Part shown: positions 5,890 to 28,167 of the stretch, piece after piece
How positions within the stretch are numbered: position 1 is the stretch's first letter
Layout of the letters: each line of letters starts with the position of its first letter
From: a virus
IMG/VR virus record: IMGVR_UViG_3300007537_000012
Coordinates: 1-28,167 of that record
DNA: 28,167 nt
Reading direction: 5' to 3' (one strand)
The notes under the pieces: model-generated
What the model saw: only the letters and a program-made list of their open reading frames with translations
Told to the model about the DNA's origin: nothing
The model's database searches: none
Translations under genes and position numbers: made by a program

Positions 5890-5905
5890 AAGATGTGAAG
5901 TTTAG

Positions 5906-5979
5906 AAGCGAGAGAAGGATTTGAACCTCCGACCTCCAGATTATGAGTCTGACGAGCTACCTGACTGCTCTATCTCGCA
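5906..5979 (-). tRNA. tRNA with CAT anticodon, initiator (fMet)-like
   Basis: The minus strand folds as a full cloverleaf. The acceptor arm pairs 5973-5978 with 5908-5913, leaving the outermost pair (5979 with 5907) as a T-T mismatch. The bases U8 and A9 are normal, the D stem is GAGC/GCTC, the anticodon stem is TCAGA/TCTGG around loop CTCATAA (anticodon at 5943-5945), and the T arm is GGAGG TTCAAAT CCTTC. No CCA is encoded. The unpaired first position and the A11-U24 pair are marks of bacterial initiator tRNA, and the D arm (AGAGCAG and GGTAGCTCGTC) is very close to initiator tRNAs. However, the three consecutive G-C pairs of the initiator anticodon stem are absent (A-T, G-C, A-T here). Elongator Met, or Ile with a lysidine-modified C, are the alternatives. 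Confidence 0.88.
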
Positions 5980-13673: not shown

Positions 13674-16403
13674 TTATAATAATTTTTTGTTCGTATACAT
13701 AAACAACCATTCCCCTGCAACTAAATTGCTTTGTCTAAATTTTATAATTTCATAATTATTACCGATTACCAAAATATTCGTTGCACTTGGTAATCTTAGA
13801 TTTGAAGAATGTACGAAATCTACTGTTAGTCCTGCATCAACCTCAATAGTAAGCTCATGATTACTATTTTCATCTTGTAATATGTCTGTTATAGTTTCTG
13901 TTGCATTTGAGGATGTGAGTATAATTCTACCAATATGGGGTTGATTACTCAAATCAATTACAGATAATCCTGTAATATCGTAAGTTCTCCAAAAGTTAGA
14001 AAATCCAGGCACACAGTTTTGATTTTCAACTAATACAGGTATTGTTTCATTATTTATAGTGAAATTTTTAATGGTACAAGCTACTAATTGTCCATTAGTT
14101 AAATCAGTGTTTTCTATACTACCATTTGATATTTCACAGGATTGTATCGCAGTATTAGAGTTAGATGTTAAGTTTATTATTTTGCTGCGGGATTCAATAT
14201 TAGAATCTCTAATAATACCTTTATAATTTAATAATTCTAAGAAAGAATCATGTTTAACTCTAACATCATTTACTTTATCATTACCCCATTGGAAGTTTTC
14301 AATGTTATCAATATAATCTAATGAGTAATAATCATTTGATTCTAATGATTGAGTTTCTGAAAAATATAAAGACTGCACTCTACTTGAGCTTCCACTAAAA
14401 GTATTACCATTCGCATCTATCCAAAAAATCCAAGTTTCTGTTTGACTTCTTACAGATGTAATACCTATCAATGCGGCAAGGGAACTTAATGAATAATTTG
14501 TAATAGTAGGGGATAAATCTTCTGCATTCTCTAACTCTATTTTGTGCATAACAGAAGGTGTAAAGTTATCTCCAACAAAAAGATATAATTTTCCATTATC
14601 TTGTACTGAAGTAACATTAGCGATTGTAGCACCTGTACCAAAACTTGATAGATTAACAATTGATGGTGTATTTGATAAAGAGTTTCCGAAATCTAGCCTA
14701 TTTAACTCTTCTCCGACAGTATCCGTAGCATAGAAAAAATAATATTTTGCATTTTCTTTTATTAGTGTTGAAAAAGCACGCTCTCTTCCATTGAATCCTA
14801 TTGAAAAACTAACCCTGTTTCTTACTTCTTCAGTATGTATATTTAAAATTGAATCTCCAAAATTATAAACACAAAAATCAAAACTATCTCCACCTAATGT
14901 ATGTTTATTAGCAAAAAACACTTTAATTTCACTATTTTCTACAAAAACAGTCATACCATAAGCACCGCCGCCATTTGCAGTTCCATCATCCAAAGTAACA
15001 CTTTTTACAAATGTTAAAGAAGACGCTAGAGCTGTATTAAATTCATATATAGATATTGTATTTCTTGAAGAATCATTAAATACGGAATTTTGGTATAATA
15101 AATACCATTTTGAATTTTTTTCATTATAAAAAGTGCTAATAAATAAAACGTTTTCACAATTACTTAAAACTCCTAAAGACACTTTAGAGGGAATATTATT
15201 AAAAGAGTTTCCAAAGTCTAATCTATATAACACATCTGTAGCACTATCAACAACAAAACCATAACAATTGCCATCTAAATCTTTTTGCATTGCTATTGCC
15301 CTATTATTTACGCTATTAGTTGGTAAAACTCCACTAATTACACTATTGTTTTGTATAGGAGTACCGCTAAGCTCGCCTTGAACTAAATCTATAAAACCAT
15401 CTTCCGTAGTAAATGTAAAACTTTGGTTAGATGTCTTTTGTAAAGCTATCATTCCAGCCCAATCCATCTGATTACCTCTCTTATCCTCTCTATATCTAAT
15501 AGTATCAGTATCAAAATCATAAAGAATATTATCAATTTCAGTTATACTATTAGGCACTTCAGTCCAATCTGAGTTTGTTTCGGGTTCTGAACTCTTACTA
15601 CCTATGTTAAAGTTAAATGTTTTACCATTCCATATTACAGTATTTGCATTAGTACTTGCTTCCCATATAGGGAAGGTTTGGTAGTCTGGAACTAATGCGA
15701 AATATTTTGCTGTTGTATCTAACTCACTAACCGACACAGGTTTAATTAGAATATTCCCATTCGTATTAAGGTGCGTTCTTTTTAATGATGTATTTATTAA
15801 GTAACGTTTAGATACATCTAAGTTGTTTGCATCTTTTAATGCTTTTAATGCGTCATAACTTATTTCTTCGTATACAATACTACTTAATAATTGTTCTTCT
15901 GTCACATTACTTGCATTACCAACCCATATATAATCTTCTGTTAAAGTATTCTTTTGATATACTTGATTTAATACATCAGGTGTTGCAATTAAAGATGCCC
16001 CTGTGCTACCAATAGCAGTATTTGCTTGTACTTCAGCTAACGTAGCTACTTCTAGTAATCCCTTGACTGTCGTAGTAGCATCTGTATTATATAGATTAGC
16101 AATTTCTTGAGCAGTAACTTTAGTGGGTAATCCTGTAGTTATATCTATTATTTCTAAAACATCTGAAGAATCTAATGTACCAATATCTGGTAAATCTTTA
16201 ATAGATATAGGTTTTAATTCACCATCAGGATTTATACGTATAGCATCCCAATCTTCTGAATTTTTAAATAACCCATCTATTAATCTTAAAATAGCAATTA
16301 TAGTATCTTTTTGACCAAATTTTTCATTATTATTAGTCTTTATAAAATTCCATAATCTTTCTATATAATCTTTAGTGAATAATAATTTTCCTAATTTTTT
16401 CAT
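13674..16403 (-). CDS. Fibre-type protein with propeller-like repeats (909 aa)
   Basis: The N-terminal 105 residues look like a virion-attachment region. Residues 108-148 carry a short module (ATTTVKGLLEVATLAE ... GASLIATPDVL) of the tail-fibre-repeat type, also found in the neighbouring fibre gene. Residues about 370-690 have beta-propeller character, with an exact RLDFGNS repeat at 394-400 and 569-575, each followed by N-x-P-S-x-V-x-L. The C-terminus (about 740-909) is a beta-helix-like region ending in a typical Bacteroidetes-phage fibre tip (DFVHSSNLRLPSATN at 862-876). Such proteins bind surface glycans or receptors as head or tail fibres. It has its own promoter-like site. No catalytic site was identified. 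The fibre call is confident in kind; head versus tail location is open. Confidence 0.7.
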   Translation of the reverse strand: MKKLGKLLFTKDYIERLWNFIKTNNNEKFGQKDTIIAILRLIDGLFKNSEDWDAIRINPDGELKPISIKDLPDIGTLDSSDVLEIIDITTGLPTKVTAQEIANLYNTDATTTVKGLLEVATLAEVQANTAIGSTGASLIATPDVLNQVYQKNTLTEDYIWVGNASNVTEEQLLSSIVYEEISYDALKALKDANNLDVSKRYLINTSLKRTHLNTNGNILIKPVSVSELDTTAKYFALVPDYQTFPIWEASTNANTVIWNGKTFNFNIGSKSSEPETNSDWTEVPNSITEIDNILYDFDTDTIRYREDKRGNQMDWAGMIALQKTSNQSFTFTTEDGFIDLVQGELSGTPIQNNSVISGVLPTNSVNNRAIAMQKDLDGNCYGFVVDSATDVLYRLDFGNSFNNIPSKVSLGVLSNCENVLFISTFYNEKNSKWYLLYQNSVFNDSSRNTISIYEFNTALASSLTFVKSVTLDDGTANGGGAYGMTVFVENSEIKVFFANKHTLGGDSFDFCVYNFGDSILNIHTEEVRNRVSFSIGFNGRERAFSTLIKENAKYYFFYATDTVGEELNRLDFGNSLSNTPSIVNLSSFGTGATIANVTSVQDNGKLYLFVGDNFTPSVMHKIELENAEDLSPTITNYSLSSLAALIGITSVRSQTETWIFWIDANGNTFSGSSSRVQSLYFSETQSLESNDYYSLDYIDNIENFQWGNDKVNDVRVKHDSFLELLNYKGIIRDSNIESRSKIINLTSNSNTAIQSCEISNGSIENTDLTNGQLVACTIKNFTINNETIPVLVENQNCVPGFSNFWRTYDITGLSVIDLSNQPHIGRIILTSSNATETITDILQDENSNHELTIEVDAGLTVDFVHSSNLRLPSATNILVIGNNYEIIKFRQSNLVAGEWLFMYTNKKLL

Positions 16404-16479: not shown

Positions 16480-19353
16480 TTACATATTTTCTAAGTGTGA
16501 ACCTTTTTTCCATGAAGCATAAAATATATCAACTGATAATACTATTAAATTACCCGCAAATGTATCTGCCATAGATGTTCCTGTTCTACCATAAGTTAAT
16601 GAGAATATATCTACAACTCCTGTTGAACCAGATATAGATGCTTCAGGTATTTCTAAAGGATAACTAAAACTTTTAACAATATTATTTTCAGAAACACCAA
16701 TAGATATAATTTCATTAACAGACCTTTGATTAATTGATAATACAGGAGCAGAAGCAGAAGTCTTATATATGTCATCTCCAATACTATTTGTTCCCCATTG
16801 TAGATTAAACTCAATATTCCCAGCACTAGCATCATCTACCATATAATATATAGTCAAATACAGTGGACAAGAAGTATCTATATTTAAAGGTAATTTTTTA
16901 CCACCACCTTTATATCTATCACTAGATGAAGAAAATGAATTTTGATTACCTGCTACAACTAATGTTTTTGAAAAATATAAATCATGATTAGATATAGAGC
17001 TTGTAAGAGTTATTTGAACAAACCTATCTAATCCTAAATTTGTATAATATCTACTTTTACCAAAAGATTCATAAAATCCATCATCATTAAACTCTGTTCT
17101 ATCTGTACCAATTTTGACTTTTGATATTGTAGGAGATGTAGTAATAGTACTTGTAGTTACTAATCTCAACCAATAATATGTAGTACCTAATGTCATAGGG
17201 TCATTTTTAGCCCAAGTATTTAACATTCTGTAATCAAACCTTACTTGATAATCAGTTGGAGATTGTGTTAAAAAATCATTACCATAAGATACATAAGGAG
17301 CAGTGGCTTTACATAAATTAAAGTTTACAGATTCCCAAGATGTTCCATTCCAATATTGAAACTCCATAGTACCCGCTCCTAATGCTGTGGCTACCGTAGT
17401 AGTAACTTTAATACTTGTGAATGCTAAACCTTGAACATTAGAAAAATATAATGCTCCATTTGTAATGTTGTCCATAGTAACTGTACCCGCAGAAACAGTC
17501 TTTAATGTATTACTAACATCCGTAAAAATACCTCCTGATGATTCAGTATATACTAACATTCCCACTGTAAATGAATCACCTTTACCTGTTACAAATTCTC
17601 TACCTGCTGTAGGAAATCCTACATGTAATTCTTGTGCAACATTTAAGGCTTCTTCTTCAACAGTTTTATCAATCAATGTACCCACAATCTCCACGGCTCC
17701 TGTAAGTACTACTTTTGTTAAATCAACACTTACATTATATACTTCCCATTTAGGATTACCTGATATAATAACATCTGTAGTACAATCTTTTACTTCGCAA
17801 TTATGAAATTCTAATGTTCCACCACCAACAGCTTCCCAACCTGTTACACAATATAATGTAACAGTATTATCTATCTTTGATACAACACCATCTTCAAAAT
17901 ATATACCTGTACCAAATGCAGTTGTTTGTGTTAAATCTCCTGAAATATTAGCACCATCTATTATAACATTACAATTTGTCCTACAATAAATACCTATTGT
18001 ATTATTAGTTAATTGTAAATCACTTCCTATATAATTACCTTCTCCTAAATCTAATCCTCGTAATAATGACTCTCTTATAGATAATAAACCTGTATGAATA
18101 TTTAATAAAAAACTACTAGAATTAATTTTATTTAATCTAAAACCTGTTCTAATGTTATCTATTCTAATATCATTAGTATATATTACTTGTTGTGTACCAG
18201 CACCACCATCTTTTATAGTAATAGCTTCAGTATTAGGAGTAGTATTTAAACTAAAACCTCCTACAATATTAATATTACCTAATGGAGATGCCGTACCATT
18301 AAATCCTGTATATTCTATCTCAAATATTGTAGAACCTGCAACATCCTCTGCAACATCTATGGTAGAATCAAATACTCCCAAACCTCTTATACTATAATAA
18401 GGATTATTTAAGGTTACAGTATTTCTCAACCTATAACTTCCTATTACAAATATATTATATTTATTATTAACAGTAGCATTAGCTTCTGCATAAGTTACAG
18501 CATTTTCCAAAGATTGATATTTATGACCTGCAATGTCAGTAGTAAAATTAGAATTTACCCATATAATATTATCAATAGCTCCCAAAGTATTTTGAATATG
18601 AGAAGGTCTAACTACAAGAGAAGCTCCTGTAACAGGGTCTACATCTGTACTATCTTCAAATTCTAATAATGTAGCTAATCTAACAACACCTCTTAATGTT
18701 TCAGTAGCATCATCTGCTATATTAACTACATAATATTTATCATCTGTACTATTATATATTACTATATAATCATGATTGGCTTTAAATTCTCCAACTCCAA
18801 ATATTTTACCATCTTTTCTCTCAACTGTTTTAACACCTGTACCATTAATATCTAATGTAATACCTGTTACAGTATTTGTATTAATACATCTAACATAAGC
18901 CCAAGCACCATCTTCTAATATAAATTCTTCTATTGTAGTAGTATAATTATCTACATTAGCTAATTCCCCATAATATCTACTATTTCCATTTAATAATATC
19001 CAATTATCTTCATTAGATGCAGGATAATCTACTAGCAACCAGACTTCCCTAGTATCTTCTTGAAATACAATAGAACCTTCTTTTACTTCATTAGTCTTAG
19101 ACTTAATACTAGGTTCATCAGATAATAATGCTAACCTAGTAGTTTTATTAGGTACTTCTATATACTCTAATTCTAATAATCTTGCTAACTCTCTTAAATA
19201 TAAATAAGTTAATTCAAATCCTTCTTGATTTATATTATTATGATTGTGATTGTATTTTAATACAAATCTATCTCTATAATTTTTATCTATATTTGCAGCA
19301 TCTACAATATATTTAAAATTGTTTACATAATCTAACTTTACTCCTTTTGGCAT
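16480..19353 (-). CDS. Fibre-type protein with beta-helix domain (957 aa)
   Basis: Residues 1-130 form a mixed N-terminal part ending in NGNSRYYGELANVDNY. Residues 215-255 hold the tail-fibre-repeat-type module (ATETLRGVVRLATLLE ... GASLVVRPSHIQ) shared with the next gene. Residues about 265-560 look like a right-handed parallel beta-helix (pectin-lyase-like; many short Ile/Asn/Gly rungs and an ASPLGNINIVGG turn). Residues 585-957 form a C-terminal beta domain with YWLRLVTT and KIGTDRTEFNDDGFYESFGK (about 745-775), a style I know from fibres of Bacteroidetes phages. It follows the portal gene with a 10-base gap. In a crAss-like virion of known structure, as I recall, a head fibre is encoded directly after the portal, so head fibre is my first guess and tail fibre the alternative. 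Confidence 0.7.
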   Translation of the reverse strand: MPKGVKLDYVNNFKYIVDAANIDKNYRDRFVLKYNHNHNNINQEGFELTYLYLRELARLLELEYIEVPNKTTRLALLSDEPSIKSKTNEVKEGSIVFQEDTREVWLLVDYPASNEDNWILLNGNSRYYGELANVDNYTTTIEEFILEDGAWAYVRCINTNTVTGITLDINGTGVKTVERKDGKIFGVGEFKANHDYIVIYNSTDDKYYVVNIADDATETLRGVVRLATLLEFEDSTDVDPVTGASLVVRPSHIQNTLGAIDNIIWVNSNFTTDIAGHKYQSLENAVTYAEANATVNNKYNIFVIGSYRLRNTVTLNNPYYSIRGLGVFDSTIDVAEDVAGSTIFEIEYTGFNGTASPLGNINIVGGFSLNTTPNTEAITIKDGGAGTQQVIYTNDIRIDNIRTGFRLNKINSSSFLLNIHTGLLSIRESLLRGLDLGEGNYIGSDLQLTNNTIGIYCRTNCNVIIDGANISGDLTQTTAFGTGIYFEDGVVSKIDNTVTLYCVTGWEAVGGGTLEFHNCEVKDCTTDVIISGNPKWEVYNVSVDLTKVVLTGAVEIVGTLIDKTVEEEALNVAQELHVGFPTAGREFVTGKGDSFTVGMLVYTESSGGIFTDVSNTLKTVSAGTVTMDNITNGALYFSNVQGLAFTSIKVTTTVATALGAGTMEFQYWNGTSWESVNFNLCKATAPYVSYGNDFLTQSPTDYQVRFDYRMLNTWAKNDPMTLGTTYYWLRLVTTSTITTSPTISKVKIGTDRTEFNDDGFYESFGKSRYYTNLGLDRFVQITLTSSISNHDLYFSKTLVVAGNQNSFSSSSDRYKGGGKKLPLNIDTSCPLYLTIYYMVDDASAGNIEFNLQWGTNSIGDDIYKTSASAPVLSINQRSVNEIISIGVSENNIVKSFSYPLEIPEASISGSTGVVDIFSLTYGRTGTSMADTFAGNLIVLSVDIFYASWKKGSHLENM

Positions 19354-19363
19354 ATCTAATTAA

Positions 19364-21877
19364 TTAAAGGTTTTTAGTATTTTTAATAGCTTTATTTGTT
19401 TGCTTAGTAGATTCTCCTGATGTAGGATTACTTGCTTTAGCTTTTGCATTCATTTTAGCTATTCTTTCTTCCATAGCTAATTTCTTTTCTTGTATAAGAT
19501 TCTTTTGTTGATTAATTCTAATATCAGCAGAATCTTTTGCCATTTTACCCATTAATTCAGTACGTCTTAATGAGTTTTCTTCAACATTTCTAATATCTTC
19601 TATCCCATCACCATCTGCATCAAGTGTATTCTGGAAACTTAACTGATTGTTCTGACCTTGAATATATAACTCTTCTTTTTTATGTTCATGTCTATTATCA
19701 TCAATTTCCATTTGTGCCAACTTATCAATTTCAGCTTCTAACTCTTTCATCTCCATATCAAACTGTCTTTGCATCTCAACAGCTTCTTTTTCTGATTGCT
19801 GTTGTTGAGCCATTGCTTGCTCCTCTTTATTCTTTAACTGATATAGTATATCTTTTAACATTGCACTATTGTTAGCATATATGATTTCAGATAATTCATA
19901 AGGATTATTACCTTGTGTAGCTAACTTTTCAGCAATACCCCTCATCTTCTCTAACTTACGTCTTTCTTCATTAGACTTATTCATAAATATACCATACTCA
20001 CTATTCATGTGGTCATACCCATCTATATCTACATGAGCCACACTATTATCATCTCTAACAACAGTTAAATGCTTACCCTCTAAATAAGCAAATTGTGTCA
20101 TATCTAAAGTTTTTTGTAATAACCTTTTTTCAAAAGATTCAAACTTGTGAAAAAAGTATTCTGTTATTGCCATACTCCTAGAAATAGATTGTTCAACAGA
20201 ACCCACTGCTTGTGATGCTTGCTGTTGTGATTTTCTAGGTTCTGATATACCTACATATCTATCCCATAAATTCTGTATCTGTAATAATAATTGAGAATAA
20301 AAATTAATCTCATTAAAAGATGTAACATTGATTTTACCTAAGAATTGCGATAACCCCAACTTCCTAATATCAGGGTCTGATAAAGTATAGAACCCTACAC
20401 CTAGTTCTCTAAAAGTTTCTAGGAATTTCTGCCAATTCCAATCTTCCCTACCTTCTCCTCCCATAACAGCTTCAATAGGCATTAAGACCCCTTCACCCTG
20501 ACTCTTTTTTACAGCTTTTTCTAACCTATAAAATATAGAACTAAATAATTTTTGATAAGGTCTACCCATTTTTAAAAATGAAGTAAAATCTGTTTCTGTT
20601 CTATAATAGTATATACCATTATATGATAGCTTCCTAGTTTGTGTAAATAATCTATTAATACCTAAGAATATTCTCCATCTATCAAACTTCCCATTACCTA
20701 AATGTTTTTTATTAGGATATTTCCAATTCTTGGCATTATTTCTATTTTTAAAATGAGAACCGTAAGGGTCTACTACCCATCCTTCCCATATATCATCTAC
20801 CCACTCATATTCTATTGACCAACCTAAGGATTCTAAATCATCAGTTAGTTTAAACTCTTCTGATACTTCAACTTGTTCTAACTCTCCTGTTAGCATATCA
20901 GGATATGTAACAATACCTATTTTTCTATACATTCTCCATTGACAATGTATAACTTCTATTAACACATCATTACTAACATTGTTCCATTGGGTAGATTTAA
21001 AATAATGTGGATAAATAGAACCTAATCTATTCATACCTGTCAGAGATGTATCATCTAATAATTCAACCATGTCATCATCCATCTCATCTCTAAAATAATC
21101 TAATATCTGTGACGGCGACCAATTATATCTTACACATACCCAATCAGCATCTTCTATAAATCTATATGTATAATCATTACTATTAGCAGCATGGTCTATA
21201 TCCTTAGGACTAATTGGAATATTAGTTACATCATCATCTCTAACATCAGTTCTACAATATGTTTGACCAGCTATTAAAAAATGTTTCCACATTTCAATAC
21301 GCTTATCTTCATATTCATCTTCCTGTGTATAATAATCCATTATATTCTGACCTCTCAACGCCTTATTATCTTTATAAGAAGTATTCCACTTATCTAACTT
21401 TTTATCCAAAGATTGTGATTCAGGCTCATTACCTAAGTTTAAATCAGTAAACCTATTAAATAAATCTTTTTTAATAAATGCAGATTCTTCTTCTTTTTTC
21501 TTAGATGCAGCATCAGGACTCTTATTCTCTACTTGATAAGATAAAGGTCTGTCAATCATCTCACCTATAAGTAATGCAAAATTACTATATAATAAATTAT
21601 AATCATCTACTTTACTCTCATTACCTTTATCATTATTCTTTTCATTGGTAGGATTAGTTACGGTGTTTACCCAGGATTTAGGAACTTTTCCCGCTGCTAA
21701 ATCATATAAATCTGTTAATTCATCATAATGGTCATACCTGTTTAAATCTCCATAAAATCTACTATTAGAATATATATACTCTATCCAATCCTTCATCACA
21801 TCAAAATTATCTTTCATCTTTTCACGTTCTGAAAGTTTTGCAGGAGGTCGTTGTGTATTTAATAAATGATTTGCCAT
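19364..21877 (-). CDS. Portal protein
   Basis: The 837-residue product has the size of crAss-like portals. The N-terminus carries SEREKMKDNFDVMKDWIEYI and RFYGDLNRYDHYDE. The body is mixed alpha/beta with many Trp/Tyr, including WSIEYEWVDDIWEGWVVD (353-370). Residues 520-600 (FYSQLLLQIQNLWDRYVGIS, then EPRKSQQQASQAVGSVEQ and a long helix) match the stem and tunnel-helix part of portals. From about residue 680 a long Gln/Glu/Lys-rich coiled coil follows, broken at 753-761 by DADGDGIED, a dockerin-like calcium loop. Portals form the dodecamer at one vertex through which DNA enters and leaves. The start codon shares one base with the terminase stop (TAATG), so the two are coupled, as expected for packaging partners. 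Confidence 0.85.
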   Translation of the reverse strand: MANHLLNTQRPPAKLSEREKMKDNFDVMKDWIEYIYSNSRFYGDLNRYDHYDELTDLYDLAAGKVPKSWVNTVTNPTNEKNNDKGNESKVDDYNLLYSNFALLIGEMIDRPLSYQVENKSPDAASKKKEEESAFIKKDLFNRFTDLNLGNEPESQSLDKKLDKWNTSYKDNKALRGQNIMDYYTQEDEYEDKRIEMWKHFLIAGQTYCRTDVRDDDVTNIPISPKDIDHAANSNDYTYRFIEDADWVCVRYNWSPSQILDYFRDEMDDDMVELLDDTSLTGMNRLGSIYPHYFKSTQWNNVSNDVLIEVIHCQWRMYRKIGIVTYPDMLTGELEQVEVSEEFKLTDDLESLGWSIEYEWVDDIWEGWVVDPYGSHFKNRNNAKNWKYPNKKHLGNGKFDRWRIFLGINRLFTQTRKLSYNGIYYYRTETDFTSFLKMGRPYQKLFSSIFYRLEKAVKKSQGEGVLMPIEAVMGGEGREDWNWQKFLETFRELGVGFYTLSDPDIRKLGLSQFLGKINVTSFNEINFYSQLLLQIQNLWDRYVGISEPRKSQQQASQAVGSVEQSISRSMAITEYFFHKFESFEKRLLQKTLDMTQFAYLEGKHLTVVRDDNSVAHVDIDGYDHMNSEYGIFMNKSNEERRKLEKMRGIAEKLATQGNNPYELSEIIYANNSAMLKDILYQLKNKEEQAMAQQQQSEKEAVEMQRQFDMEMKELEAEIDKLAQMEIDDNRHEHKKEELYIQGQNNQLSFQNTLDADGDGIEDIRNVEENSLRRTELMGKMAKDSADIRINQQKNLIQEKKLAMEERIAKMNAKAKASNPTSGESTKQTNKAIKNTKNL

Positions 21878-24159
21878 TATTGATTATTTATATATTGTTT
21901 CATATTTTCCCATATATCATTGTAAACTCCTTTTTCTACCGTATTATTCAAATTTTGCATAAATTGCTTATGACAAAACATATATAATCTCATTGAAGAT
22001 ATACGGTCAAAGTTCCCGTCTATGACAAAACTAATACATTCTTTTAAGAAACCAATATCCATTATAGTATTTAACCTATACTGATATACAGTTTTATTTT
22101 TATCAGTATCGTCTACAACAGATACTTCCTCCATTAACCATTCAGCTAAATATTTATATCCCAACTTATTCATCTCATCAGTAAAAGTATTTCCAAGAGG
22201 AAGGTTCTTATTCCTAGACCTTTCTTTTGGGTCTAGCATATCTAATGAATGTTCTAGTAGATGTGTCTTCTTCCATTCCCTTGCATAATCTATTGCAGAT
22301 TGACCACCCCCACGTCTTTCAAAATTAATCTTACAATTATAATATTCTGCTAACTTAAATACATTAGACCACCAAGTTTTTAAATCAGGTCTACCTATAT
22401 ATTTAGCCACAATAGTACCTGTATATAAATTAATAGGAACATTTCTATCATACTCCTTTATAACATAACATGCACCAATAGATGTAAAATTATCTGTTTG
22501 GTCAGAAGCAAAAGGGTCTACTACAATAGTGTAGAGATTCTTAGGTATCTTCCGTACTTTATCATAGTGTTCTTGACCGTGAGAATTAATTGTCTTATAA
22601 TCATATACAACTCTTTTAGGTGTTTCTAATATACTAATACAACCTTCTATATTATCCACTCTATCATCTACAGGATAATCATTAAAAGGTATTAAATTAT
22701 TATCAGGTTTAAATGTAACACCACTCTTAGCTCTCTCTAATTTACCATGTGTCCATAACTTATCTAAATCCTCACTCTGTATTCTAATTAACTGCTCTTC
22801 TAATAACTTAGTAGGAAATATATTACCCTTAATACGCTGTAAAGCCTCCATTGGTGAAAAAGGATATTCTGCTGCATATTGTGTTACATTAGTTTCATTA
22901 CCACTAGCTCTAATCTTTTGTCTTTCCTTAATATGATGTAAATAACCACGTAAAGTATCCATGTTACCATCATCATCCATATATAAACCTATGCAATATT
23001 GAACAGGAAAAAAGAATCCACACTTCTTACCATATCTACCCTTATCCCAATAATTAATAAATTCTACCATATTATTAGCAGTAGGTGTATAAAACATCTC
23101 TCTTAATCCTATAATTCCTATACCATCTTCACCACCTGTACCCCACGGAATCAATGTACCAATAACATAACCATCTTGTTCTACCAAAGGTCTACTAGCG
23201 GATAATACATTCTTCAATGTTGGAAATGAACCTGCTTCTTCAAACATTACATATAATCCATCTAATCCCCTAACTTTTTTTTCTTGACTTAATGCTACAC
23301 CTTGTATTTCAGAACCTTTCCATATCTCATTCTTCCTCTTATCATACTTACTAGCTCTACGGTGCATCTTAGACATTGGACTATTTACTACTTGATGTGG
23401 CTTTAACATAGCACCATTAGTATTAATATTTAAAAAATCAATAGTATCCCAACATACCTTATCTAATATCCTTTTAGCACCACTAATCATATCCTTAGTA
23501 TACCCACAATATATAACAGTCTTTTTAAAGTCTGTAACGTAAGTGTGAACCCCTATTGACCCCATAACTTCTGTAAATCCTGTACGTCTAGGTTTTACAA
23601 CGCTAAGATGTTTACCCTTATTCTTAGCTTCTTCCTGTAATGCCCAAAAGAAATGATAATGTATTACCCAAAATTTAGGAAACCCATCCACCTTCTTACC
23701 TATACCAAGTTCCTTATCTACTTCAACAGTAATTTGCATCCTCCTATAATTTAGGAAAAAATAGTGCAACCCTGTAATATCTATTTGGTCAGGAGTACCT
23801 ACATTAATACTATAACCTTCTCTACATCTCCTATATTCTTCTTCCCAAAACTCTTTATATTTCCTACTCTTACGCCTATATTCACAATACTTACCTGTTT
23901 CAATAAATCTATTAGCCGCTTCAGATAACTTATGAGTATCTCTAAATGTAGAAGGAGTCTTATGATTATGATACATATTAGGTAACATTGGCATATAATC
24001 AGATAAGATTTCTTCATTAGCCTCTATATTAAATTCATCAAATATCTCCTTTATATCTTCTGTTAATATCAAATCACCGTTTGAATCATAATTCAATGTA
24101 TACCCAAACGGTGTTTCTATTTCTCTATCAATAAAAGATATTAATTCAAGTTCATCCAT
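21877..24159 (-). CDS. terL: Terminase large subunit
   Basis: The 760-residue product has the ATPase and nuclease parts in order. The Walker A-type loop is VVKPRRTGFTE (187-197), Walker B is LYVMFEEAG (302-310) with the catalytic Glu, and the coupling motif is VIGTL (332-336). The RNase H-like nuclease follows with acidic D548 in TIVVDPFASDQTDNF, E614 in INFERRGGG and an Asp near 701 in TIMDIGFLKECISF. It drives genome packaging through the portal and cuts the concatemer. The length suits crAss-like large terminases. It lies 17 bases after the small-terminase-position gene and overlaps the portal by one base. The start context is an AT-rich ATTATG. This is the most secure call in the window. 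Confidence 0.93.
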   Translation of the reverse strand: MDELELISFIDREIETPFGYTLNYDSNGDLILTEDIKEIFDEFNIEANEEILSDYMPMLPNMYHNHKTPSTFRDTHKLSEAANRFIETGKYCEYRRKSRKYKEFWEEEYRRCREGYSINVGTPDQIDITGLHYFFLNYRRMQITVEVDKELGIGKKVDGFPKFWVIHYHFFWALQEEAKNKGKHLSVVKPRRTGFTEVMGSIGVHTYVTDFKKTVIYCGYTKDMISGAKRILDKVCWDTIDFLNINTNGAMLKPHQVVNSPMSKMHRRASKYDKRKNEIWKGSEIQGVALSQEKKVRGLDGLYVMFEEAGSFPTLKNVLSASRPLVEQDGYVIGTLIPWGTGGEDGIGIIGLREMFYTPTANNMVEFINYWDKGRYGKKCGFFFPVQYCIGLYMDDDGNMDTLRGYLHHIKERQKIRASGNETNVTQYAAEYPFSPMEALQRIKGNIFPTKLLEEQLIRIQSEDLDKLWTHGKLERAKSGVTFKPDNNLIPFNDYPVDDRVDNIEGCISILETPKRVVYDYKTINSHGQEHYDKVRKIPKNLYTIVVDPFASDQTDNFTSIGACYVIKEYDRNVPINLYTGTIVAKYIGRPDLKTWWSNVFKLAEYYNCKINFERRGGGQSAIDYAREWKKTHLLEHSLDMLDPKERSRNKNLPLGNTFTDEMNKLGYKYLAEWLMEEVSVVDDTDKNKTVYQYRLNTIMDIGFLKECISFVIDGNFDRISSMRLYMFCHKQFMQNLNNTVEKGVYNDIWENMKQYINNQ

Positions 24160-24176
24160 AATTCTATAAGTTTATC

Positions 24177-24806
24177 CTAGAAGTCTTCACCTTCATCTAT
24201 CTCACCATAGTTATCCGTATTATCTTTTTTGTTTTCAACATATTTACTCTTTAAGTCCATTAAAGTTTCTAATAATACTTTAAAAGATTTAGCATTTGCA
24301 TTAGCTTTATTAATCATATCTAAACCACTAGCTATCTCATCATTCTCTAATTTATCTAAATTCTCTAAATCATTATCTATCTTTTCAGCTATCTTATTAT
24401 TAAATTTAATATACCTATGTATAGCCTTCCTAGTAGATTCTAGTGCATCATATATAATATCACGAGTTAATTTCTTATACACCTTAATACATTCCAATAA
24501 TATATCATCCTTCTCCCAACTATATTTATCATCCTTACTCTCTAATTCAGATACATATAATGCTTCCTCAATTCTTTCATCTTCTGTTAAATCTATTTCA
24601 GAAGTAGGACTAAAAGAATGATATATAAACTTTAAAGCTCTAACATCTTTTGGTGCAGATATTCTCTTATCATTTCTACCATCTTTATTACCAGACTCTC
24701 TCCTATAATCCCTAGAACATAATTTGTTATAACAATCATAGTGTAACATATACGGAGCTAATAATATCTCCCCTGTATCCATATCTAATCTAATTGGTCT
24801 ATCCAT
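24177..24806 (-). CDS. Protein in small-terminase position (209 aa)
   Basis: The 209-residue product has a mixed N-terminal part with two Cys (C25 and C30, in YDCYNKLCSRDYRRE), a basic stretch (about 31-52) and then a mostly helical body (about 75-200) with coiled-coil-like stretches (DNDLENLDKLENDEIA and ALLETLMDLKSKY-type segments). The C-terminus is acidic (EIDEGEDF). Small terminases are short helical oligomers that recognise the phage DNA and are usually encoded directly before the large subunit, as here with a 17-base gap. The sequence does not show a recognisable helix-turn-helix, so the function rests on place and helical content. Its start shares one base with the HU/IHF-like gene stop, so the two are coupled. 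The stop is TAG, which argues against TAG being read as an amino acid here. Confidence 0.5.
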   Translation of the reverse strand: MDRPIRLDMDTGEILLAPYMLHYDCYNKLCSRDYRRESGNKDGRNDKRISAPKDVRALKFIYHSFSPTSEIDLTEDERIEEALYVSELESKDDKYSWEKDDILLECIKVYKKLTRDIIYDALESTRKAIHRYIKFNNKIAEKIDNDLENLDKLENDEIASGLDMINKANANAKSFKVLLETLMDLKSKYVENKKDNTDNYGEIDEGEDF

Positions 24807-25075
24807 TATTTCTTCTTTTTATAAACTCTCTTTTCTTGTGAATTAAGATGCTTATGCAACCTATTCTTATTAATCTTAAATCTACCTAACCCATGTAATA
24901 ATACATCTTTATCATTATTAGTACGTAAGTGCATCTCTAAATAATCAGATATAATATTAAATACTAATCTAACATCCTTAACCGATACCCCTAAGTCATC
25001 ATTCAACTCTTTACCTAATTCAGCAAAAGTTATATCTTCTGCAACTTCTTCTATAATATTCTTATTCACTCTCAT
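24806..25075 (-). CDS. Small HU/IHF-like DNA-binding protein
   Basis: Residues 30-70 of this 89-residue protein (SVKDVRLVFNIISDYLEMHL, then NNDKDVLLHGLGRFKINKNR) follow the first half of the HU/IHF fold: helix, turn, helix, then beta with the L-x-G-x-G-x-F core. The DNA-clamping beta arm with its Pro is not seen. Instead the tail is short and very basic (EKRVYKKKK). Small IHF-like proteins are known in crAss-like genomes, and bending DNA at the packaging site or organising the genome would fit here. The gene overlaps the nuclease gene by 14 bases and the next gene by one base. A small basic regulator with only local similarity is the alternative. Confidence 0.5.
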   Translation of the reverse strand: MRVNKNIIEEVAEDITFAELGKELNDDLGVSVKDVRLVFNIISDYLEMHLRTNNDKDVLLHGLGRFKINKNRLHKHLNSQEKRVYKKKK

Positions 25076-26678
25076 AACAATTTATTAATATTTTACTGTA
25101 ATCATCACAATCATATCTAAAATATTCATCCTCTTTAAGATGAATAACTATTAACTCATCTATCTCAAATATTGTAGCATCTTCTAGTAATACCTTATAT
25201 GTTCCTAGTTGTAACTGATATTTATTAAAAGCATTTGCCACCAATGTATCAAAAGGTTTAAGTAAATACTCTGAATAATTTTTAAATAAATTAGCATTAG
25301 TTTTCCAATCACCTAATGACAATTTACCCGTATGCTTGGATACCATAGGTAAATCTATTGTACCTGCTAAATTATAGTTCTCACTATAAACTCTTAACTC
25401 TGGTACAATATACCAATAATCCTTACTATAATCTATTAAAAACTTTAAACCATATAATGCTTTATTTTTACAAACTTCTACATTAGATACTGATAACTCA
25501 TCAGCTTTACTAACTACTGCACTATACAACTTATTTCTTAAAGTATCAACTTTATCATTAAAAGCATAATCTATGTCAATTTTATAACAACTATACATAT
25601 ACTTAACAACTTCTTCTAAAGCATAATGCACAACAGTACCTTCATTAGCAGCCCTATCTCTATTATTATCCCACTTCTCAATAATCTGCTCTTTTGTAAA
25701 ACCTTTATAATTTTTAGTACCAACACATCTACCCGCTATCATATCCCAATCCTTATACTTTTCATAACCTTTATTAAAGGTAGTAACACTAACTCTTTGG
25801 TTATTTTCAACAGTATAAGTATGAGTATCTTCTACAAACTTTAACCTACTAAAAGATTTATCTAATTCCCCTTGAATATCAAATATATTCCAAGAACTAC
25901 GTTCAATAGTATTATTACCATACTCCTTTAAAATTAAAGAATATAACCAATTAATACCCTTAGATGTCATCCTTACAACTTTACCAACTTTATATTCAAA
26001 ATATCCAGACTCTATATACTTTCTATAAGGTATGTTATTTTTATTTAATATCTTCTTATCCCTTAAAAAAGAATATAAGTTATTCCTACCCACATTACGC
26101 TGCCTCATTATATTAGCAACTTCTGATATATTATATAAATTAGTATCACTATCTATACAAGTATCAAAAAATTCAACCTTAGGTTTAACACTTTCTAACA
26201 TATCCTGCGTATCAGCTAACATCCTTAAAGCCTCTGAAAAACTAGAAGGTAACTTATTAATCATCTCATTACGTACTTTTACAAGAGTTTCCTCACAACT
26301 TAATAGGTAATCCCTGTATCTACTAGCATTATCTGTTTTAGCCATCATAGCTAAATGCTGCCCTGTACGTAAAGTAATAGCATAGTCCATCTTTATATTA
26401 CCCTTCAACTTTCTACCTGTATTACTATCCTCAATAGGTGTGTAATCTATACCATTATTAAATAACGTATCTTTCTTAGCAGTACCTACTAAATTACGTC
26501 TTACCCACTTAGACCAATTACTAGGATGTAATCCTAAACCATTATACAATTCTCTCAATGATACAACCTTAGAAACTTCACCATTAATCTCTATGTCTTT
26601 AACAGTAAGTAATTCTAACTTATTATCCATATAGTCAGGTATTATATCATCATCTGATATTTTAATATTGCTTGACAT
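25062..26678 (-). CDS. AntA and ANT antirepressor domains fused to PD-(D/E)XK nuclease
   Basis: Three parts are visible in 538 residues. Residues 40-110 match AntA/AntB-type antirepressor domains (LRELYNGLGLHPSNWSKWVR, then IKMDYAITLRTGQHLAMMAK). Residues 158-252 match the ANT/KilAC-type domain (ISEVANIMRQRN...NNLYSFLRDKKILN, then RMTSKGINWLYSLI). Residues 278-525 form a RecB-type PD-(D/E)XK nuclease: an H-x-Y turn (286-288), G347-T-V-V-H351, E427, G-T-I-D442, G-D457-W-K459 and Q488/Q490 with Y494. The catalytic set looks complete. PD-(D/E)XK nucleases near the terminase are typical for crAss-like phages; the antirepressor fusion is unusual. The front part may bind DNA or a regulator, and the rear part cleaves DNA in recombination or end processing. 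It overlaps both neighbouring genes by 14-17 bases. Confidence 0.8.
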   Translation of the reverse strand: MSSNIKISDDDIIPDYMDNKLELLTVKDIEINGEVSKVVSLRELYNGLGLHPSNWSKWVRRNLVGTAKKDTLFNNGIDYTPIEDSNTGRKLKGNIKMDYAITLRTGQHLAMMAKTDNASRYRDYLLSCEETLVKVRNEMINKLPSSFSEALRMLADTQDMLESVKPKVEFFDTCIDSDTNLYNISEVANIMRQRNVGRNNLYSFLRDKKILNKNNIPYRKYIESGYFEYKVGKVVRMTSKGINWLYSLILKEYGNNTIERSSWNIFDIQGELDKSFSRLKFVEDTHTYTVENNQRVSVTTFNKGYEKYKDWDMIAGRCVGTKNYKGFTKEQIIEKWDNNRDRAANEGTVVHYALEEVVKYMYSCYKIDIDYAFNDKVDTLRNKLYSAVVSKADELSVSNVEVCKNKALYGLKFLIDYSKDYWYIVPELRVYSENYNLAGTIDLPMVSKHTGKLSLGDWKTNANLFKNYSEYLLKPFDTLVANAFNKYQLQLGTYKVLLEDATIFEIDELIVIHLKEDEYFRYDCDDYSKILINCYESE

Positions 26679-26880
26679 CTTCTGTATAATGTTTAATGGT
26701 TCTATCTATTATATTTTGATTAATATGTTTTTTATAAGAATCTAAGTTCTCATAATATATATCCTTTAATTGAGGATACTTATTCAATATCTCACCACAT
26801 TGCTCAATAAAGATGTGTGGGTATTTTAACATCTTATCAATATATTTACGGTGTATCTTTTTAGCTTTTTTACTTTTCAT
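26662..26880 (-). CDS. Small basic protein of unknown function (72 aa)
   Basis: The 72-residue product is rich in Lys, Tyr, His and Ile (MKSKKAKKIHRKYIDKMLKY) and looks wholly helical. It has no membrane segment or known motif. It lies between the RusA-like gene (10-base gap) and the antirepressor-nuclease gene (17-base overlap) and has the shared TAAAATTATG start context, so it is probably real and translated with its neighbours. The charge suggests nucleic-acid binding or a role as partner of the nearby nucleases, but that is only a guess from place. Confidence 0.45.
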   Translation of the reverse strand: MKSKKAKKIHRKYIDKMLKYPHIFIEQCGEILNKYPQLKDIYYENLDSYKKHINQNIIDRTIKHYTEDVKQY

Positions 26881-26890
26881 AATTTTATAT

Positions 26891-27445
26891 TTAATATTCT
26901 ATACGATAACCTAATTCAGTACTATTCTCTAATTTAATATCTTCCAATAAAATATTCTTTAATTCTTCAAACTTAGCATCTAATCTAGCCCCTAGATAAT
27001 CTTGCTCACTCTGGAAACTTATATAAACACCTGGGGATTCCTTGTCTATACTATACCACCCACCATTATAATACATAGGTACAGGAATTATATAATCCAT
27101 GTTGTCATCCTCTATCACATCATGTGCTACCATTAAATCTAATACTATCTGACATACATTATGGAAATCAAACTTCCTCCTACTATCTCTTACAAAATGA
27201 AATTTAACTATAATAGGAGAACTCCTATCTATATCTACATCTTTAAATATCTTTTCAAATTCATTATCCCTAGTCTTATAATTAGTGTATTCCTTCTTAC
27301 TAACACTGAACTTCTGTACCCCTAACTTCTGTAAATACTTTTTAACAGTCTTACTATGGAATACTCCTTTAGAAGTTTTAACTTTACTGTTCTTAGAACT
27401 AGGAACATTGTTGGGAATAAATATACAATCATCTAATAAATTCAT
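26891..27445 (-). CDS. RusA-like Holliday junction resolvase
   Basis: The 184-residue product shows the RusA pattern: the N-terminal IPNNVPSSKNSKVKTSKGVF (10-29), then FVRDSRRKFDFHNVCQIVLD (84-103) and LMVAHDVIEDDN (104-115). In E. coli RusA the acidic residues lie in an R-D-x-D-N motif and in a downstream D-D pair. Here the first motif reads FDFHN (D93, H95, N96), so one of the two Asp positions is His, while D113/D114 are kept. This variant is familiar to me in phages of Bacteroidetes. RusA enzymes resolve branched DNA during replication, recombination and packaging. It is the first gene of the leftward unit, behind a good promoter-like site, followed after 10 bases by a small gene. The family call is sound; activity with the changed residue is unproven. 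Confidence 0.82.
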   Translation of the reverse strand: MNLLDDCIFIPNNVPSSKNSKVKTSKGVFHSKTVKKYLQKLGVQKFSVSKKEYTNYKTRDNEFEKIFKDVDIDRSSPIIVKFHFVRDSRRKFDFHNVCQIVLDLMVAHDVIEDDNMDYIIPVPMYYNGGWYSIDKESPGVYISFQSEQDYLGARLDAKFEELKNILLEDIKLENSTELGYRIEY

Positions 27446-28081: not shown

Positions 28082-28167
28082 GGTCAAGAGTCTACAAAGA
28101 TGGAAGAAAAACCTTCCAGGTTTTCTCTTTGAAGAACACCTCATACATAGTTTGATTGAATTTTAAA

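Follow-up and report, generated by a model that had tools for sequence, protein, structure and literature searches.

The structural gene block of crAss-like phages contains a PD-(D/E)XK nuclease that was named PDDEXK_a by Yutin et al. 2021 (PMC7886860) and whose function has been described as unclear (PMC10136315). AntA-ANT antirepressors are known from temperate phages such as phiCDKH01 (PMC11172241), and epsilon crAss-like phages encode stand-alone Bro-N/KilAC antirepressors along with a repressor (PMC11054128). Odn of phage ICP1, in which a captured DNA-binding domain is linked to a nuclease, is a proven example of such a fusion and shows that the arrangement can redirect a phage nuclease (PMC8263062). 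Here, we describe a gene in which AntA and ANT domains are joined in frame to the nuclease of a crAss-like phage. It is a genuine, complete gene fusion, apparently unreported so far and found in a single divergent lineage; through it, a known crAss-like nuclease takes on a new domain architecture. First-pass annotation of the window (the whole 28,167-bp stretch of DNA that was analysed) had read the locus as antirepressor domains fused to a RecB-type nuclease; that observation is confirmed, and the interpretation offered with it, taken up below, is partly supported.

The fused gene lies on the minus strand, which the earlier annotation had not specified, within a tight operon. In the direction of transcription, the order is as follows:
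26891-27445, minus strand: RusA-like Holliday-junction resolvase, upstream neighbour (phrog_1682, 1.3e-14)
26662-26880, minus strand: 72-aa protein with no assigned family, upstream neighbour, overlapping the fused-gene start
25062-26678, minus strand: fused gene AntA-ANT-PD-(D/E)XK, 538 aa, with a matching ORF in an independent genome
24806-25075, minus strand: HU/IHF-like DNA-binding protein, downstream neighbour, overlapping the fused-gene end (PF00216, 6.2e-5, above cut-off)
24177-24806, minus strand: 209-aa protein adjoining TerL, a TerS candidate by position only, with no convincing family match in Pfam or PHROGs
21877-24159, minus strand: crAss-like terminase large subunit, TerL (phrog_6681, 3.2e-93; ~32% identity to crAss-like TerL)
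19364-21877, minus strand: crAss-like portal protein (phrog_6547, 7.8e-65)

Two genes separate the fused nuclease from TerL. Further crAss-type marker proteins are recognised by Pfam (Crass_capsid, 2.9e-55; CrAss_Ring_2, 1.4e-20; CrAss_Ring_1, 9.5e-27), and we assign the phage to Crassvirales by the sequences of its crAss-type major capsid protein, ring proteins, TerL and portal. Between the portal and major capsid genes are two large proteins of 909 and 957 aa (13674-16403 and 16480-19353) with no convincing Pfam match. A tRNA-Met gene (CAT anticodon) is found inside the structural gene block, at window positions 5905-5979.

A separate IMG/VR genome of 92,710 bp (G001) contains the whole window and the fused ORF, with 40 SNPs over 28,167 bp and no indels. 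The two ends of this genome share 320 bp at 99%, indicating that it is effectively complete and circular. Four of the 40 SNPs, two silent and two replacement, fall within the fused ORF, either inside the AntA region or immediately following it. From residue 238 to residue 312, the ORF lacks any in-frame ATG, GTG or TTG; the nuclease therefore has no standard codon from which to start independently at the junction, and we reject separate translation there; an AAAGGAG..ATG close to residue 251 is out of frame. In the complete genome, the fusion is the sole phrog_298 nuclease found, and the sole ANT found is likewise within the fusion. Neither an HTH_3-type repressor nor a tyrosine integrase was found in this genome. 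A search of PADLOC-DB matched no family and recognised no known anti-phage defence protein, on which ground identity as a defence system was rejected. One ORF in the late region of this genome is 5392 aa long (35278-51456, minus strand). A 56-nt element occurs in four copies (locus L010, 6320-6375, 6641-6696, 7306-7361 and 7812-7867) in noncoding DNA past the late-operon start, near 86.3-87.9 kb of the complete genome, and one copy is within the window (28100-28155). Each copy has a hairpin, with three compensated pairs across the four, and then an invariant GAACACCTC box, for which there are 4 matches against 0.1 expected.

Within the fused protein, the following parts are distinguished, from N- to C-terminus, with invariance judged among 44 relatives:
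26334-26564, minus strand: AntA domain, residues 39-115 (Pfam PF08346, E 9.5e-11)
26154-26327, minus strand: two long helices, residues 118-175 (predicted at 118-142 and 147-175, moderate to low confidence)
25926-26198, minus strand: ANT/KilAC domain, winged-helix-like in the model, residues 161-251 (Pfam PF03374, E 3.3e-14)
25890-25925, minus strand: junction linker, residues 252-263 (low model confidence at 255-259)
25068-25889, minus strand: RecB/Cas4/MGME1-type PD-(D/E)XK nuclease, residues 264-537 (phrog_298, model, Foldseek)
25614-25628, minus strand: H351 and E355, GTxxH(xxxE) motif, invariant
25398-25400, minus strand: E427, invariant
25353-25355, minus strand: D442, AGTID motif, invariant
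25302-25310, minus strand: D457-W-K459, (D/E)XK motif, D457 and K459 invariant
25197-25211, minus strand: Q490 and Y494, QxxxY motif of RecB-type nucleases, invariant

The AntA match, earlier placed at residues 40-110, covers the full profile (1-68 of 68) and scores 42.6 bits against a curated cut-off of 27. The ANT match, earlier placed at 158-252, covers nearly all of its profile (4-107 of 108), scoring 53.6 bits against a cut-off of 25.3. In addition, the phrog_63 anti-repressor profile matches residues 22-307 (3.2e-35), and residues ~22-253 align end to end with stand-alone AntA-ANT phage proteins at ~30% identity. By these sequence matches, residues 1-255 constitute a whole antirepressor-type module with both AntA and ANT domains. 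The full-length model (mean pLDDT 81, pTM 0.55) predicts the order AntA, two long helices, ANT (helices and a beta hairpin), low-confidence linker and nuclease. Its N-terminal half is of moderate confidence only, and at this pTM the placement of the halves relative to each other is uncertain. The helices at residues 118-175 may form a coiled coil or oligomerisation segment.

The motif set and predicted fold both place the C-terminal half in the RecB/Cas4/MGME1 branch of the PD-(D/E)XK superfamily, and its activity would be that of an exonuclease. The nuclease had been expected at residues 278-525; we find that it extends over 264-537, with the phrog_298 exonuclease profile matching 264-527 (1.3e-22). 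H351, E355, E427, D442, D457, K459, Y487, Q490 and Y494 are invariant in the alignment of 44 relatives, and the catalytic set is recovered in a separate 10-sequence alignment as well. The first-pass list of catalytic residues thus stands for H351, E427, D442, D457, K459, Q490 and Y494; it fails for Q488, which is not conserved, and the position of W458 is mostly Tyr in relatives. An AlphaFold2 model of this half, folded with the 44 relatives, has a pLDDT of 94.5. Foldseek matches it to AdnAB (1.2e-5) and MGME1 (1.6e-5), and also to Cas4, AddAB and Dna2; MGME1 is the best PDB match by profile (2.7e-4). Profile searches by part succeed for AntA, ANT and phrog_298, and PF12705 (PDDEXK_1) gives no match to the fused protein at the Pfam cut-off. 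Since most stand-alone homologues score below that cut-off too, the miss reflects the reach of the Pfam model. From the phrog_298 match and the location in the structural block beside TerL, we identify the nuclease half as crAss-like PDDEXK_a.

How rare is the joined architecture? Nuclease loci were gathered by short-pattern scans that list no more than 80 loci apiece, and the counts are those among the matches listed. The 411 loci listed contain 183 distinct complete nuclease ORFs; the two that carry ANT are the variants from this lineage, and none of the ~180 others has the domain. This bears out the expectation that the fusion is rare. The first 255 residues do match AntA and ANT, and nowhere did we find the architecture to be common. 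No INPHARED phage or PLSDB plasmid record covers at least 80% of the fused protein, and the fusion was not found among the IMG/VR relatives listed by nuclease, ANT or TerL, in GTDB contigs, in 396 Bacteroidota genomes or by BFVD structure comparison; on these searches we reject a common architecture. In 50 large viral contigs that bear the nuclease, ANT is confined to this lineage. Across 788 bacterial genomes of two phyla, no open frame with an ANT match above cut-off exceeds 322 aa. No adjacent stand-alone ANT gene, as a possible precursor, is present within the fetched flanks. The nearest TerL outside this lineage among the IMG/VR matches listed is only 34% identical, implying that the collections lack close relatives.

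The best explanation, one that could go either way, is that the phage's own PDDEXK_a has been joined in frame to an AntA-ANT protein that tethers or controls it. Because the nuclease is present in single copy at its canonical position by TerL, it has presumably retained a housekeeping role; AntA-ANT is best regarded as an addition to this enzyme, a canonical exonuclease at its usual place. The nuclease would keep its usual job of trimming DNA ends or flaps in late recombination, branch resolution and packaging, and would act together with the proteins encoded nearby, namely the RusA resolvase, HU-like protein and terminase. The N-terminal AntA-ANT module may make the nuclease an oligomer, and the ANT winged helix, or a protein contact, may hold it at particular phage DNA or at a partner complex. 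In this way AntA-ANT probably steers an ordinary enzyme and does not create a new kind of system. Counted against tethering are the occurrence of the fusion in one lineage only, the two amino-acid replacements, in AntA or immediately following it, among the four codon differences between strains, and the limited confidence of the N-terminal model with its uncertain placement of the halves. The earlier interpretation, that cleavage is coupled to a regulatory signal or that ANT is a putative targeting domain, is plausible.

A bolder version, which we put forward tentatively, is that the antirepressor has been turned into an address label: AntA-ANT would bind specific phage or competitor DNA and so confine or switch a packaging or recombination exonuclease. 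If true, this would be a site- or signal-gated RecB-type exonuclease, a kind without earlier description. The natural fusion offers a handle on both the near-universal crAss-like PDDEXK nucleases and the poorly defined binding of AntA/ANT, as the target of AntA-ANT should lie where this crAss-like nuclease acts. It also suggests that an antirepressor module has been reused, probably outside lysogeny control.

It is also conceivable, and in our view rather unlikely, that an acquired antirepressor gene became continuous with the nuclease gene when a stop codon was lost, with the N-terminal part merely tolerated. The single lineage, the low-confidence linker in the model and the location of all four between-strain differences inside the AntA region or immediately behind it would fit such a passenger. 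A dead passenger, however, is expected to decay, and here both antirepressor domains are complete though only ~30% identical to any relative, in a joined frame that is intact in two strains. Complete domains at this distance from their relatives imply that AntA-ANT has probably long been kept under selection, which argues against a decaying passenger.

Quite unlikely is a bifunctional regulator, in which AntA-ANT inactivates a repressor (the phage's own, or that of the host or a resident prophage) and the nuclease works independently. By annotation and in the literature, AntA-ANT proteins are antirepressors in temperate phages, phiCDKH01 among them, and the epsilon crAss-like phages provide a precedent with their Bro-N/KilAC proteins and repressor. 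A classical antirepressor role or simple lysogeny control is less likely here, because the search of the complete genome yielded no HTH_3 repressor and no tyrosine integrase. The gene is, moreover, placed in a structural operon, and antirepressors are normally short stand-alone genes, as in the 788 genomes above.

We regard it as improbable that AntA-ANT sends the nuclease to competitor DNA, such as prophages or satellites, in the manner of Odn. Odn itself is a precedent for the design, and ANT occurs in prophages, which could share target sites. Against this, the fusion is the genome's only phrog_298 nuclease and sits at a housekeeping position, and PADLOC gives no match. The closest solved relatives are end-dependent exonucleases, whose substrate preference makes them poorly suited to cutting intact circles. 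Finally, an assembly artefact merging two separate genes has nothing in its favour except the single-lineage occurrence and is hardly credible, as the continuous ORF recurs in an independently assembled genome that differs at 40 sites and has no indels; we reject it.

Like the PDDEXK_a proteins of p-crAssphage (gp83), crAss002 (gp4) and cr3_1 (gp67), the nuclease half belongs to PHROG 298, shares the invariant residues and is encoded a few genes upstream of TerL. Those three proteins stand alone at ~330 aa and lack AntA/ANT, in agreement with the earlier statement that PD-(D/E)XK proteins near crAss-like terminases are normally free of antirepressor domains; here there is an N-terminal extension of 257 residues. 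The extension resembles the antirepressors of Staphylococcus phage phi 13, Marinitoga camini virus 1 and Bacteroides phages BF698P1 and C3_41T2LP, which combine AntA with ANT and are ~30% identical to the fusion over ~230 residues. These antirepressors stop after ANT (~222-244 aa), whereas the fused ORF runs on into the nuclease and, unlike their genes, sits in a structural operon. AntA appears in other combinations too: at L211 (2878-4158) it shares a protein with a Pox_D5-like primase/helicase C-terminal segment, a further fusion of AntA to a replication-type domain, and at L209 (2437-3858) a 473-aa protein has P22_Cro/YdaS, KilA-N and AntA domains in series.

The nuclease domains of MGME1, Cas4 and the AddAB-AdnAB-RecB group share the RecB-type motif set and are the best solved-structure matches by profile and fold, but they are only ~11-21% identical and lack AntA/ANT. 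Odn of ICP1 is, by analogy only, a similar phage protein in that it pairs a borrowed DNA-binding module with a nuclease; it differs in its GIY-YIG (T5orf172) nuclease, in its DNA-binding module and in being an accessory anti-satellite gene. The longest other fusion among the nuclease loci listed is an 847-aa ORF on a Prevotella contig (L234, 2303-4846), in which an SF1 helicase (AAA_11/AAA_12) is fused to a nuclease of the phrog_298 family. There, as here, the nuclease is C-terminal; its N-terminal partner is a helicase and not AntA-ANT. The Prevotella protein thus indicates that this nuclease family accepts N-terminal partners elsewhere.
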